This document shows, one piece after another, positions 2,332 to 41,158 of a stretch of DNA of 41,965 nucleotides. Within the stretch, counting starts at the first letter, position 1. Each line of letters opens with the position of its first letter. The DNA is from an uncultured Verrucomicrobiota bacterium (GTDB lineage Bacteria > Verrucomicrobiota > Verrucomicrobiia > Verrucomicrobiales > Akkermansiaceae), in NCBI GenBank assembly GCA_913063525.1, contig CAJXYV010000006.1, positions 1 to 41,965 on the forward strand. Reading direction: 5' to 3'. Both the position numbers and the translations under genes were made by a program. The notes beneath the pieces were generated by a model that made no database searches, was not told the DNA's origin, and saw nothing but the letters and a program-made list of their open reading frames with translations.

Positions 2332-2360
2332 CTTGCTTTGTTCGGTTTTTGGTGATTCTA

Positions 2361-2374
2361 TTCCCGCACAGGAA
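2361..2374. promoter_or_regulatory. Second TTCC-N6-GGAA operator upstream of hipB (site 2)
   Basis: TTCCCGCACAGGAA repeats the TTCC-N6-GGAA outline of site 1, with the first six bases identical. It overlaps the ribosome-binding region (AGGAAGA) of hipB, so binding there could block both promoter clearance and translation start. The regulatory role is inference from spacing and HipB precedent. Confidence 0.5.
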
Positions 2375-2377
2375 GAA

Positions 2378-2596
2378 ATGACGAACGCACTCGATATCGG
2401 CCGACAGGTCAAACAGCAGCGCAAGCGACTCGCGATGAACCAATCCGAGTTGGCGATGGTCTCCGGCACCGGGGTTCGTTTCATCAGCGATTTGGAGAAT
2501 GGCAAGGAAACCTGCGAAGTGGGAAAGATGCTGCAAGTGTTGGCCAGTCTCGGGATCAAAATCGAATTCAGTGGTGTTGGGGAGGGCCACGGCTGA
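2378..2596 (+). CDS. hipB: HipB-like antitoxin, helix-turn-helix DNA-binding protein
   Basis: 72 residues from the ATG at 2378, which has AGGAAGA just upstream. The XRE-type helix-turn-helix spans about residues 9-60 (IGRQVKQQRKRLAMNQSELAMVSG, then FISDLENGK and LQVLASLGIKIEF), the standard HipB fold. HipB dimers bind operator DNA and neutralise HipA. Its TGA overlaps the ATG of hipA by one base, giving translational coupling and the antitoxin-first order. Two matching palindromes upstream support autoregulation. An upstream TTG at 2333 in the same frame is less likely because it would place both operators close to or inside the gene. Confidence 0.85.
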   Translation: MTNALDIGRQVKQQRKRLAMNQSELAMVSGTGVRFISDLENGKETCEVGKMLQVLASLGIKIEFSGVGEGHG

Positions 2597-3822
2597 TGGC
2601 TCGCGTTCTGGACGTGTATTTGGGGCGGAGTCTGGCGGGGCATTTCACGCAGGATGATTCAGGATCGCTATGGTTCCGTTATGCGGCGGAATGGCTGGCG
2701 AGTGATCACGCACGGGCGCTTTCCCGATCGCTGCCGCTGCAGGCGGAGGAATACGGTCGCACCGAGTGTCGGCCGTTTTTCGCAGGATTGTTGCCCGAGG
2801 ATGAAGGGCGGGAATTGATCGCGCGGCGCTTCGGGATCAGCGGGCGCAATGATTTTGCGCTACTGGAGAAAATCGGTGGCGAGTGCGCGGGCGCGGTCAG
2901 TTTGATGCCGTCGGGTGAACAGCCGCCCGAATCCGGAAGCTACCATGAGATTTCTGAACACGAACTGGCGCGGTTGTTGGGCCTGCTGCCGCAGCGCCCT
3001 CTACTGGCGGGCGAAGAAGGAGTGCGACTCTCGCTGGCAGGAGCGCAGGCAAAGCTGGCGCTGACCATCCGCGAGGGTATTTTCCTGCTGCCGCAAGGAG
3101 GAGCAGCCAGCACGCACATTCTCAAGCCAAGTAGCCCGCACTTCGAGGGACTCGTGGAAAACGAGCATTTCTGCATGACTCTGGCCGCGAACGTTGGCTT
3201 GTCGGTGGCCTCCACCAGCATCGGCCAGGTTGATTCGATTCGTTTCCTGCAAGTCGAACGCTACGACCGCAGGCGATTGCCCGACGGGACGCTTGTGCGA
3301 TTGCACCAAGAGGATTTCTGTCAAGCGATGGGGATTCCGCCCGAGCTCAAGTACCAGCAAGAGGGCGGACCCAACTTGAAAAAATGTTTTGGGCTCGTGC
3401 GCAGTGCCTCAAGCGCACCAGGGCCCGATGTCCTGCGTTTGTTCGACGCGGTGGTGTTCAACTACGTGATCGGCAACAACGATGCGCACGGCAAAAATTT
3501 CTCCCTGCTCTACGATGGCGGCGCGGTGCGGATGGCCCCGCTTTATGATTTGGTCTGCACTCAGGCGTGGGGAGGCCTGGCCGCCACCCTGGCCATGAAG
3601 ATCGGCGACGAGCGCAAACCCGAACGGGTCCGTGCGGCGAACTGGCGGAAGTTTTTCAAGGATGCCGGATTGGGCGCCGCCACGGCGGAGAAGCGGTTGC
3701 GGACCCTAACAAAAGATATCTTAGCCTCCGCGCTCGAGCTTGGCAAAGCGCACCCCGCATGCGCTCGGCTGTCTTCGATTATCGATCAAAATGGCGCGCG
3801 CTTACTCTCGCTCGATTGGTAG
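2596..3822 (+). CDS. hipA: HipA-like serine/threonine kinase toxin
   Basis: 408 residues. The N-terminal HipA_N domain is followed by the activation-loop motif RLSLAGAQAKLAL (144-156; Ser146 matches the autophosphorylated serine of E. coli HipA). The kinase core FNYVIGNNDAHGKNFSLL carries catalytic Asp296, and APLYDLV carries metal-binding Asp318. All catalytic residues appear intact. E. coli HipA phosphorylates glutamyl-tRNA synthetase and causes growth arrest and persistence; the target here is unknown. It is translationally coupled to hipB and lies in an accessory region close to a tRNA-type attachment site, consistent with acquisition by transfer. Confidence 0.88.
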   Translation: MARVLDVYLGRSLAGHFTQDDSGSLWFRYAAEWLASDHARALSRSLPLQAEEYGRTECRPFFAGLLPEDEGRELIARRFGISGRNDFALLEKIGGECAGAVSLMPSGEQPPESGSYHEISEHELARLLGLLPQRPLLAGEEGVRLSLAGAQAKLALTIREGIFLLPQGGAASTHILKPSSPHFEGLVENEHFCMTLAANVGLSVASTSIGQVDSIRFLQVERYDRRRLPDGTLVRLHQEDFCQAMGIPPELKYQQEGGPNLKKCFGLVRSASSAPGPDVLRLFDAVVFNYVIGNNDAHGKNFSLLYDGGAVRMAPLYDLVCTQAWGGLAATLAMKIGDERKPERVRAANWRKFFKDAGLGAATAEKRLRTLTKDILASALELGKAHPACARLSSIIDQNGARLLSLDW

Positions 3823-5897: not shown

Positions 5898-5978
5898 GCT
5901 GCGTGTGCGCTTGATTCTTAGATTTTCCTCGACAAAAACGCGCCACGGTTTGGCGTGACGCCTCATCGCGCAGCTCGT

Positions 5979-6338
5979 TCAGAGGCCCGGCTTGGGTTTT
6001 CTGGGGCGGCCGCGGCGCTGTTCGCTTTTGGGGACGAAGCCGAGGGCGCGGTAAAACGAGCAGTCTTCGCCGAGGTCGGGGTTGCCGCGCACGGCGCTGG
6101 CGATGTGGACGAGGTGATCGTTAAGGGCCTCCTCCTTTTGATCCCGCGTCTGGATCAGTCCGGCGATCAGCGTTCGCGCGGCGGAAATTTCTTGGCGCAC
6201 CGCTTCGACGTCTGCGGCCTCGGCGGCAAATTGGTCGACGCTGAAGCCGGCGAGTTTGGCATCCGGCGCGAACTTCCGCCAAGCGGTGACAAAGTGGCTG
6301 CTGCGGACGGCGATGGGCTTGTTGTGTAAGAGCGACAT
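5979..6338 (-). CDS. Conserved protein of unknown family (paralogue of 40772-41158)
   Basis: 119 residues from the ATG at 6336-6338. It is mostly helical, with an invariant-looking core FYRALGFVPKSEQRRGRPRKP. The same layout appears in the gene at 40772-41158 (FYRSLGFIVDNERQ). From memory, proteins ending in an ALGYVRKSER-type segment are widespread in Verrucomicrobiota and have no assigned function. The basic, proline-rich tail suggests nucleic-acid contact, but that is a guess. Its upstream region holds the phased palindrome array at 6388-6605, and its 3' end is duplicated at 3884-3955. Confidence 0.6.
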   Translation of the reverse strand: MSLLHNKPIAVRSSHFVTAWRKFAPDAKLAGFSVDQFAAEAADVEAVRQEISAARTLIAGLIQTRDQKEEALNDHLVHIASAVRGNPDLGEDCSFYRALGFVPKSEQRRGRPRKPKPGL

Positions 6339-6387
6339 GGTGGAGCTTTTAAAATCAGTGCTTTGGGGCACGATGTCGACATTTTTA

Positions 6388-6605
6388 ATTCGCTTGTATC
6401 GATGTGCAAGGGGATTCAAGCCGTCTCAATTTCGCTTGGGTTGTGTTCCAAGCGAAATAAAACGCGTTTTGGCGCGGTAATATCGTTGTTTAATTCGCTT
6501 GGGTTCGCCTGTAAGCGAAATAAAATGAACTGAAATTCGCTTTAGAAGTCATGCAAGGGAATTGATTTTGATTTTAAATCGCGTGGAACTGGTTTTAAGC
6601 GATTT
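6388..6605. repeat. Array of five helically phased 29-bp imperfect palindromes
   Basis: Units start at 6388, 6430, 6493, 6535 and 6577, so the intervals are 42, 63, 42 and 42, all multiples of 21 bases (two helical turns). Each unit is 29 bases with left arm ATTCGCTT and right arm AAGCGAAAT 20 bases later. Units 2 and 3 have near-perfect arms. Unit 1 reads AAGGGGATT, unit 4 AAGGGAATT and unit 5 AAGCGATTT on the right. Spacers are 13 bases, except 34 between units 2 and 3. The array lies upstream of the leftward gene at 5979-6338 and downstream of the channel gene at 6720-8156. It fits an operator array or other nucleoprotein site; function is unknown. Confidence 0.7.
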
Positions 6606-6719
6606 TAATGTCGTCGGATCGCGGGCAAAAGCCGTGTCCTCAGAGCAGCAAGGGGTCTTGTTCGCGCCAAGGGTCGGCTTGGCGGCGAGGCGGAATGGGC
6701 CGACCTCGGCAAAAGCCGA

Positions 6720-40334: not shown

Positions 40335-40771
40335 AGGTTGTTAGGAATATGATGATTGGGTTTGGATGTGCGTCGGAACCTGCGTGAGAGGTGCCGAGAC
40401 GCGGAAATGAAGAATGGCGCCCATGCGACTCCCTGTGGTGAGCACAGGAAGTTCTATCGGCTAGACTTAGTGCTCAAGACCCTAGGCATCCTGCCTGCCT
40501 TGCCAAGGAAGTTTTAGGGGGATCGATTTTTATGGGCTCAAGCTGGGCGAATTGATTTCTTGCGGGTCGTCTCGGATTCATCCGGTCTTCTTCCATCCCT
40601 TGAAAGCCCCGTGCGCGCCTGCGCAGCGCCGGGTCTGCTTTTTTAATTTGATTCCCGGCGGTGGGCCGGTATGCTCCCCAACAAGAAAAGCTGCTGATCC
40701 TATTGGATCAGCAGCCCTCTTGGATCAACGCTTACGCGGCGTTGTTTGATTCGGCTTACTACGGCGATGAA
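40335..40771. other. Gene-free region upstream of the arabinan operon
   Basis: Apart from the terminator at 40680-40715 I see no gene here. The first 150 bases on the minus strand must hold the symporter promoter; CATATT about 20 bases before the ATG is a weak -10 candidate. No adjacent arabinose-type regulator gene is present. Confidence 0.35.
40680..40715 (-). terminator. Rho-independent terminator of the gene at 40772-41158
   Basis: GCTGCTGATCC (40690-40700) and GGATCAGCAGC (40705-40715) form an 11-bp perfect stem with a four-base loop. On the minus strand the stem is followed by TTTTCTTGTT. It lies 57 bases after the stop of the unknown-family gene. Confidence 0.8.
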
Positions 40772-41158
40772 TCAAGCAACGTTCGCGGTCGGCGTTATGG
40801 CCGGGACGACGACCCCCTTGCGCGCGGGACGCTGCCGTTCGTTGTCGACAATGAAGCCGAGCGAGCGGTAAAACGCGCTATTTGGCCCAAAGGGTGGAGT
40901 GGAGCGGATGGCATTTGCCAGCATGATCAACGTTTTCCTCAGGGTGGTATTGGCTTCGTCGCGCTCCACGAGCAGGCCCTTATACACGGCTTTCGCCGTA
41001 TCGATGCGTTGCTGGATCTCTCCCGGCGCGAGCTTTTCAACTTCGAACTGGGCGAGCGTCCGACCGGCGAGGCTGACTTCGGGGGCGTATTCACGCCACG
41101 AGGTGATCAGCTCATAGCTGCGGGCGGCGAGGGTTTGTGTTTTTAATTTAGTAACCAT
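40772..41158 (-). CDS. Conserved protein of unknown family (paralogue of 5979-6338)
   Basis: 128 residues from the ATG at 41156-41158, with AGGAAA about ten bases upstream. It shares the plan of the 5979-6338 gene: an N-terminal SWREYAPEVSLAGRTLAQFE, a long helix with LL..RDEAN, then ANAIRSTPPFGPNSAFYRSL and GFIVDNERQ. Conserved spacing indicates common descent. The basic RGRPRKPKP tail of the other copy is replaced by ARKGVVVPAITPTANVA. It is monocistronic, with its own terminator. Function unknown. Confidence 0.62.
   Translation of the reverse strand: MVTKLKTQTLAARSYELITSWREYAPEVSLAGRTLAQFEVEKLAPGEIQQRIDTAKAVYKGLLVERDEANTTLRKTLIMLANAIRSTPPFGPNSAFYRSLGFIVDNERQRPARKGVVVPAITPTANVA

Follow-up and report, generated by a model that had tools for sequence, protein, structure and literature searches.

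The window analysed here is a stretch of 41,965 nucleotides from an uncultured Verrucomicrobiota bacterium of the Akkermansiaceae (assembly GCA_913063525.1, contig CAJXYV010000006.1). It contains a small minus-strand gene of an unannotated family, a phased repeat array whose end lies 49 bp from the start codon of this gene, and a second member of the same family (Table 1). In addition, a small helix-turn-helix gene adjoins a HipA-like gene at 2333-3822, and by eye the two form a putative hipBA-type toxin-antitoxin pair.

Table 1. Positions of the family genes, the phased array and the associated hairpins within the window.
Feature	Position	Strand	Remarks
Terminator-like hairpin with T run, 3' of family gene	5940..5961	-	Consensus match only
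Family gene	5979..6338	-	119 aa plus stop; predicted N-terminal helix, long helix 34-85, basic C-terminal tail SEQRRGRPRKPK
21-bp-phased array	6387..6605	-	Ten 9-bp half-sites in eleven 21-bp slots; upstream of minus-strand gene 5979-6338
Best palindromic unit	6429..6458		ATTTCGCTTGG ... CCAAGCGAAAT; 11-bp arms 100% complementary
Empty 21-bp slot	6471..6479		Half-site absent; source of the 63-bp interval
Second near-perfect palindromic unit	6492..6521		AATTCGCTT ... AAGCGAAAT
Hairpin across stop codon of second member	40740..40781	-	CGTTGCTTGATTC ... GAATCAAACAACG; conserved, with compensatory changes in 12 paralogues
Second family member	40772..41158	-	128 aa; no array in the 807 bases from start codon to contig end

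A preliminary description of this locus had placed five palindromic units in the array, with starts 42, 63, 42 and 42 bp apart. These units and spacings are present in the sequence, and the proposed 21-bp register emerges more sharply as a row of ten alternating half-sites. Allowing up to two mismatches to AATTCGCTT, half-sites were located at 6387+, 6408-, 6429+, 6450-, 6492+, 6513-, 6534+, 6555-, 6576+ and 6597-, and no further one was found in the interval 6300-6700 at the same tolerance. Their orientation flips every 21 bp within a single register, all centres being congruent to 7 modulo 21. The top four lags in the autocorrelation of the array were 105, 42, 63 and 84, and none of 2000 dinucleotide shuffles reached a periodicity as high, either at a base period of 21 or at any period from 15 to 35. 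The wide interval between units 2 and 3, previously read as containing an extra 21 bp, corresponds to one unoccupied slot at 6471. The palindromic character ascribed to all units holds for some of them: unit 2 has perfect arms and the unit at 6492..6521 is near-perfect, whereas units 1, 4 and 5 are degenerate, with the right arms AAGGGG and AAGGGA or the left arm AAATCGCGT. TTCGCTT-N8..14-AAGCGAA was found as a palindrome at two places in the window and in none of the shuffles.

Dispersal of the motif through the genome, as expected of a generic REP-like element, was not observed: elsewhere in the 3.0-Mb draft genome the window motif had no match with 0-1 mismatches, and matches appeared only at 2 or more mismatches. 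The window motif is private to its own locus. A promoter search of the window returned one weak site, located inside the array and disregarded here, and an Rfam search of the window gave no match to a known RNA family.

Searches of Pfam, NCBIfam, PHROGs and the PDB gave no acceptable match to the 119-aa window protein. AlphaFold2 models of this protein and of a Chloroflexi homologue (mean pLDDT 90.7 and 89.7, respectively) both predict a first helix of ~15 residues, a long helix of ~52 residues, a short C-terminal part and a basic tail, with no sheet; the most conserved residues of the family lie in the short C-terminal part before the basic tail. A putative dimer formed through the long helix is plausible. 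In the models (pLDDT about 90), composed of one short and one long helix, no ribbon-helix-helix or winged helix is seen. Structure searches of the PDB and of viral models with the family protein revealed no relative, and low-Z structural matches such as HMG boxes were not accepted as evidence. Carriage of the family by viruses or plasmids was rejected after searches of IMG/VR with the window protein and of plasmids and phages with a homologue from the same genus, both of which returned no match; one cyanobacterial plasmid was matched by a distant family relative.

The family has 31 members in the 3-Mb draft genome. About 24 of the 31 possess an upstream array whose step is exactly 21 bp, or 42 bp where neighbouring units are inverted, as in the window, and the downstream flanks of the own-genome members contained no array; two members have an upstream region shortened by a contig end. 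Beyond what the preliminary description had noted, paralogues differ in the letters of their motifs, each array having its own sequence (e.g., GAAGTCGACTTCCAACATTGG, AACGTTCGTTGCCAGAGCAGA, CTTTGGGCACTCGTGGATAAG), and have only the 21-bp step in common. Because the array letters differ, this geometry is easy to miss. Several members have their array at a distance of 400-960 bp from the start codon, beyond the block of homology shared by the paralogues.

The stop-codon hairpin of the second window member recurs at the 3' ends of ~16 paralogues (e.g., L085, L087, L092). Among 12 paralogues, 5 of its 12 pairs show compensatory changes; it is followed by an intrinsic terminator and has no Rfam match. 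The homology block of these ~16 paralogues extends over ~600 bp and comprises leader, gene, hairpin and terminator. Across 20 family loci, Rfam gave a single match, far below its gathering score.

Within the same order and class, divergent members from other families are likewise preceded by an array (L115, L117). Using an alignment of divergent members, a scan of GTDB genomes uncovered relatives in Cyanobacteria, Chloroflexi, Bacteroidetes, Acidobacteria, Desulfobulbaceae, Myxococcales, Planctomycetes and other Verrucomicrobia, and homology between the two protein sets extends from end to end (hhalign probability 98.7, E 4e-16). Under a strict test with a single threshold for all periods, 81 superfamily loci in other phyla had a 21- or 42-bp array upstream in 45 cases versus downstream in one. 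Other periods were encountered at one to three loci each, with the exception of 63 and of a set with step 20, and most of the remaining loci displayed a period of 63, a multiple of 21, or a less pronounced 21. Of 30 matches in ten further genomes, 24 were preceded by an array and most of the others were gene fragments; in two single-contig cyanobacterial genomes the array was found upstream of all members tested (26/26). Such a location is the one expected of an autoregulatory operator array, and homologues with upstream arrays at multiples of 21 bp, as anticipated by the preliminary description, were looked for and found. A typical array measures ~240 bp, has eleven or twelve units and stops 100-260 bp short of the start codon. 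Family members are many per genome and patchy between species. Taken together, these results show that the gene and its upstream 21-bp-step array constitute a conserved module over several phyla.

Several loci deserve separate mention. In six orthologues from one Nostocales clade (L206, L238, L240, L253, L254, L257) the step is exactly 20 bp. At L244, L248, L219 and L215, a higher-order period of 63 bp is built from three different 21-bp units. In Nostocales, the region from the array to the start codon contains a conserved stretch (alignment A5; L227:1650-1815 and orthologues) with a small leader hairpin, AATAAC / GTTATT, which reads AAGAAC / GTTCTT in one clade. The protein of the class-level relative L116 is identical to that of L179 from a Verrucomicrobia MAG, in keeping with a probable origin of the window in Verrucomicrobiota. 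Two very diverged members in genome G575 (L314, L315; HGLQTISTYNTNRTDAS...) still have a 21-bp array upstream, which suggests a still wider family. At L064 (G012:C30:16552-16803), the family domain ends a 600-aa open frame whose upstream part resembles antisense sequence, so that the arrangement does not look like a true fusion.

The array motif is common to 94-99% of protein pairs that are >80% identical and to 0-2% of pairs below 70%, it is retained by orthologues in different genomes, and the 21-bp step is kept at <30% protein identity. Since motif sharing tracks protein identity, motif and protein travel together; motif turnover is fast and the step is constant. Fast turnover, together with the degeneracy of many arrays, the one in the window included, is in line with a passive satellite, that is, a functionless product of an upstream region that tends to duplicate in tandem at a step of 21 bp. 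Such a process, however, is at odds with a step of 21 bp, and no other length, at nearly every locus and with the retention of the motif by orthologues, and the coexistence of conserved and variable columns within units suggests that selection acts on part of the array unit. We regard a satellite of this kind as distinctly improbable.

The period equals seven codons, and the repeats might accordingly be imagined to encode coiled-coil heptads; a few arrays (L068, L083) can indeed be read as heptads in one frame. Yet codon-phase variability at p<0.05 was detected in 0 of 51 arrays (median p 0.58), and some arrays have no open frame running through them. The equality with seven codons is, on this evidence, a coincidence, and the arrays are not coding; as a general explanation, encoded heptads are refuted, and we attach hardly any credence to them.

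Variation within the arrays also bears on whether they could act as RNA. By analogy with type III toxin-antitoxin systems, the array might be transcribed into repeated 21-nt units that are bound by the small protein: a single small gene always lies 3' of the array, each module has its own repeat, and many of the transcripts, as read from sequence, would have a structured leader and a 3' hairpin. Dyad-symmetric units, however, are present in about a third to a half of the arrays, half or more of the array types lacking significant dyad symmetry, and changes in the dyad arms are mostly uncompensated, with 618 one-sided versus 81 complementary changes (42 expected). About half of the 81 stem from two composite arrays, C10 and L077, which are the main source of the complementary excess. 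Arrays of RNA hairpins were weakly supported and set aside, the predominance of one-sided changes being what is expected for protein sites on DNA and not for RNA stems. Moreover, the AT skew of the arrays relative to the gene is not consistent (the GC skew lies close to zero or just below it), the step corresponds to two DNA turns in all phyla, and the members have no ToxN-type or other defence family in common. An RNA-level system appears quite unlikely on these grounds.

Arrays without an adjoining family gene (solo arrays) were surveyed in several genomes. In 400 kb of own-genome contigs lacking the family gene, 19 arrays with a step of 21 or 42 were detected versus at most 2 at any other period from 9 to 62, indicating that the step of 21 is special to this genome; per kb, 21-bp arrays are ~8-fold denser near family genes than in this background. 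The solo arrays occupy mostly intergenic gaps, in all gene orientations, and 8 of 18 have a motif in common with a gene-linked array. Four of these eight are located at contig ends, so that an unseen adjoining gene is possible. About five solo arrays were seen in 172 kb of G033 (13 members). Of the two single-contig cyanobacterial genomes, G518 had about four in 160 kb of background and G575 (14 members) no convincing one in 120 kb. G012 (five members, with arrays at L040 and L049) had none in 200 kb except one short-period and one coding repeat, and four relatives without the gene (G003, G306, G079, G041) were free of such arrays over 500 kb. Three Nostoc genomes keep the motif almost wholly at the gene locus. 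The 42-bp scan also caught a coding repeat at L066 (81-1497), a gene for a histone H1-like protein rich in Lys, Ala and Pro (PAAKKPAAKK).

A selfish or dispersing repeat resembling REP-RAYT, whose protein would help to copy or amplify array DNA and whose gene-linked array would seed the solo arrays, could account for the abundance of solo arrays only in gene-rich genomes, their absence in relatives without the gene, the eight matching motifs and the many, patchily distributed paralogues. It fits poorly with the confinement of the motif in Nostoc, with the lack of convincing solo arrays in G575, with the contig-end position of half of the matching solo arrays and with the absence of a transposase family match. 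Terminal inverted repeats were looked for around the arrays and, as a rule, not found, which also speaks against this explanation and led us to reject a location of the arrays within MITE-like elements. We consider a dispersing repeat unlikely overall.

Sites on the same face of the helix and two turns apart, a co-inherited motif and no coding signal fit a protein-DNA assembly in cis, most simply an autoregulatory one. We therefore favour, with a probability of roughly 0.5, a model in which the array would serve as a row of same-face binding sites, acting in cis, for the adjacent small protein encoded just downstream. The family protein, with its long helix and basic C-terminal tail and probably oligomeric, would bind its own array cooperatively along one helix face, and a nucleoprotein filament or wrap would form beside the promoter of the family gene. 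This structure would control expression of the gene itself and possibly organise the local DNA. Each paralogue would recognise its private motif, allowing many modules to operate in one cell without cross-talk, and in gene-rich genomes the extra copies of some array types elsewhere may represent additional targets. For the window array, an operator or cooperative binding array, as put forward in the preliminary description, is the reading that fits best as judged from sequence, and the array does belong with the gene; nothing favours the partition site that had been offered alongside.

Several observations count against a row of binding sites. The predicted model of the protein contains no recognised DNA-binding fold, half or more of the array types are not significantly dyad-symmetric, and the motif turns over much faster than the protein, beyond what is expected of an ordinary operator. 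In its simplest form, the binding-site model also fails to explain the step-20 Nostocales clade and the arrays located 400-960 bp away.

On a broader view, which we advance tentatively, the loci might represent an undescribed and widespread class of gene-array module that combines a novel helical protein, a fixed 21-bp pitch and a private array in dozens of orthogonal copies, with a motif that evolves like a centromere or satellite and a pitch set by the protein assembly. Here, an unannotated protein family that occurs in several phyla, at up to 31 copies per genome, proves to be linked to a strict geometry of the DNA. Its dozens of naturally matched proteins and motifs are material for working out a recognition code and open the origin of many intergenic tandem repeats to testing, and the family may define a new means by which bacteria assemble phased nucleoprotein structures.

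No description of the family or of its arrays was found in open-licence papers, an absence that is weak evidence; as far as this literature shows, the gene-array module appears to be undescribed. Judged by the libraries used, the predicted gene product is not a RAYT transposase, a known type III toxin or a known defence protein.

Comparison with known systems brings out partial likenesses. CRISPR and TIGR arrays adjoin a gene and alternate conserved blocks with variable stretches, as the module does; its variable stretches, however, are short and change gradually from one unit to the next, and the array-linked protein, the one protein searched in this respect, matched no Cas or Nop-domain family. 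The iteron and operator arrays of plasmid replication and partition likewise consist of tandem sites spaced by about two helical turns, and they precede the gene for a small DNA-binding protein. The module shares this spacing and position next to a small-protein gene but differs in its many chromosomal copies, each with its own motif, in lacking a replication or partition family match and in a predicted protein model without ribbon-helix-helix or winged helix.

Type III toxin-antitoxin systems (ToxIN, CptIN) have locus-specific tandem repeats directly upstream of one small gene, according to two reports (PMC8860590, PMC4627078). The layout of the module is the same, with a tandem array particular to each locus immediately 5' of a single small gene. 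No family of the ToxN/CptN/TenpN endoribonuclease type, whether from Pfam, NCBIfam or PADLOC, is common to its members, isolated single-member matches being the only ones obtained. It also differs in its step, 21 bp as opposed to about 36 nt for the ToxI repeat, and in its DNA-like changes.

REP/REPIN elements with their RAYT (TnpA-REP) are described as short, often palindromic intergenic repeats that are both gene-linked and dispersed (PMC3116915, PMC8266576). The module resembles them in its often palindromic intergenic repeats and in having gene-linked plus dispersed copies, the latter found for some own-genome array types, not for the window motif and barely in the three Nostoc genomes. 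Unlike them, it has no transposase match (no Pfam match to a Y1 (HUH) transposase in 29 + 42 members and no conserved His pair in the alignments), and its repeats are tandem, upstream only, at a fixed 21-bp step and with a motif that is not conserved between paralogues.

The heptamer direct repeats of Beggiatoaceae and cyanobacteria are intergenic tandem repeats at multiples that include 21 bp (PMC4679880), and in this the module is alike; arrays of this type were seen here as cyanobacterial background. Lags of 14, 28 and 35 also occur among the heptamer repeats, whereas the units of the module, free of a 7-bp inner period, are set only at multiples of 21 bp.
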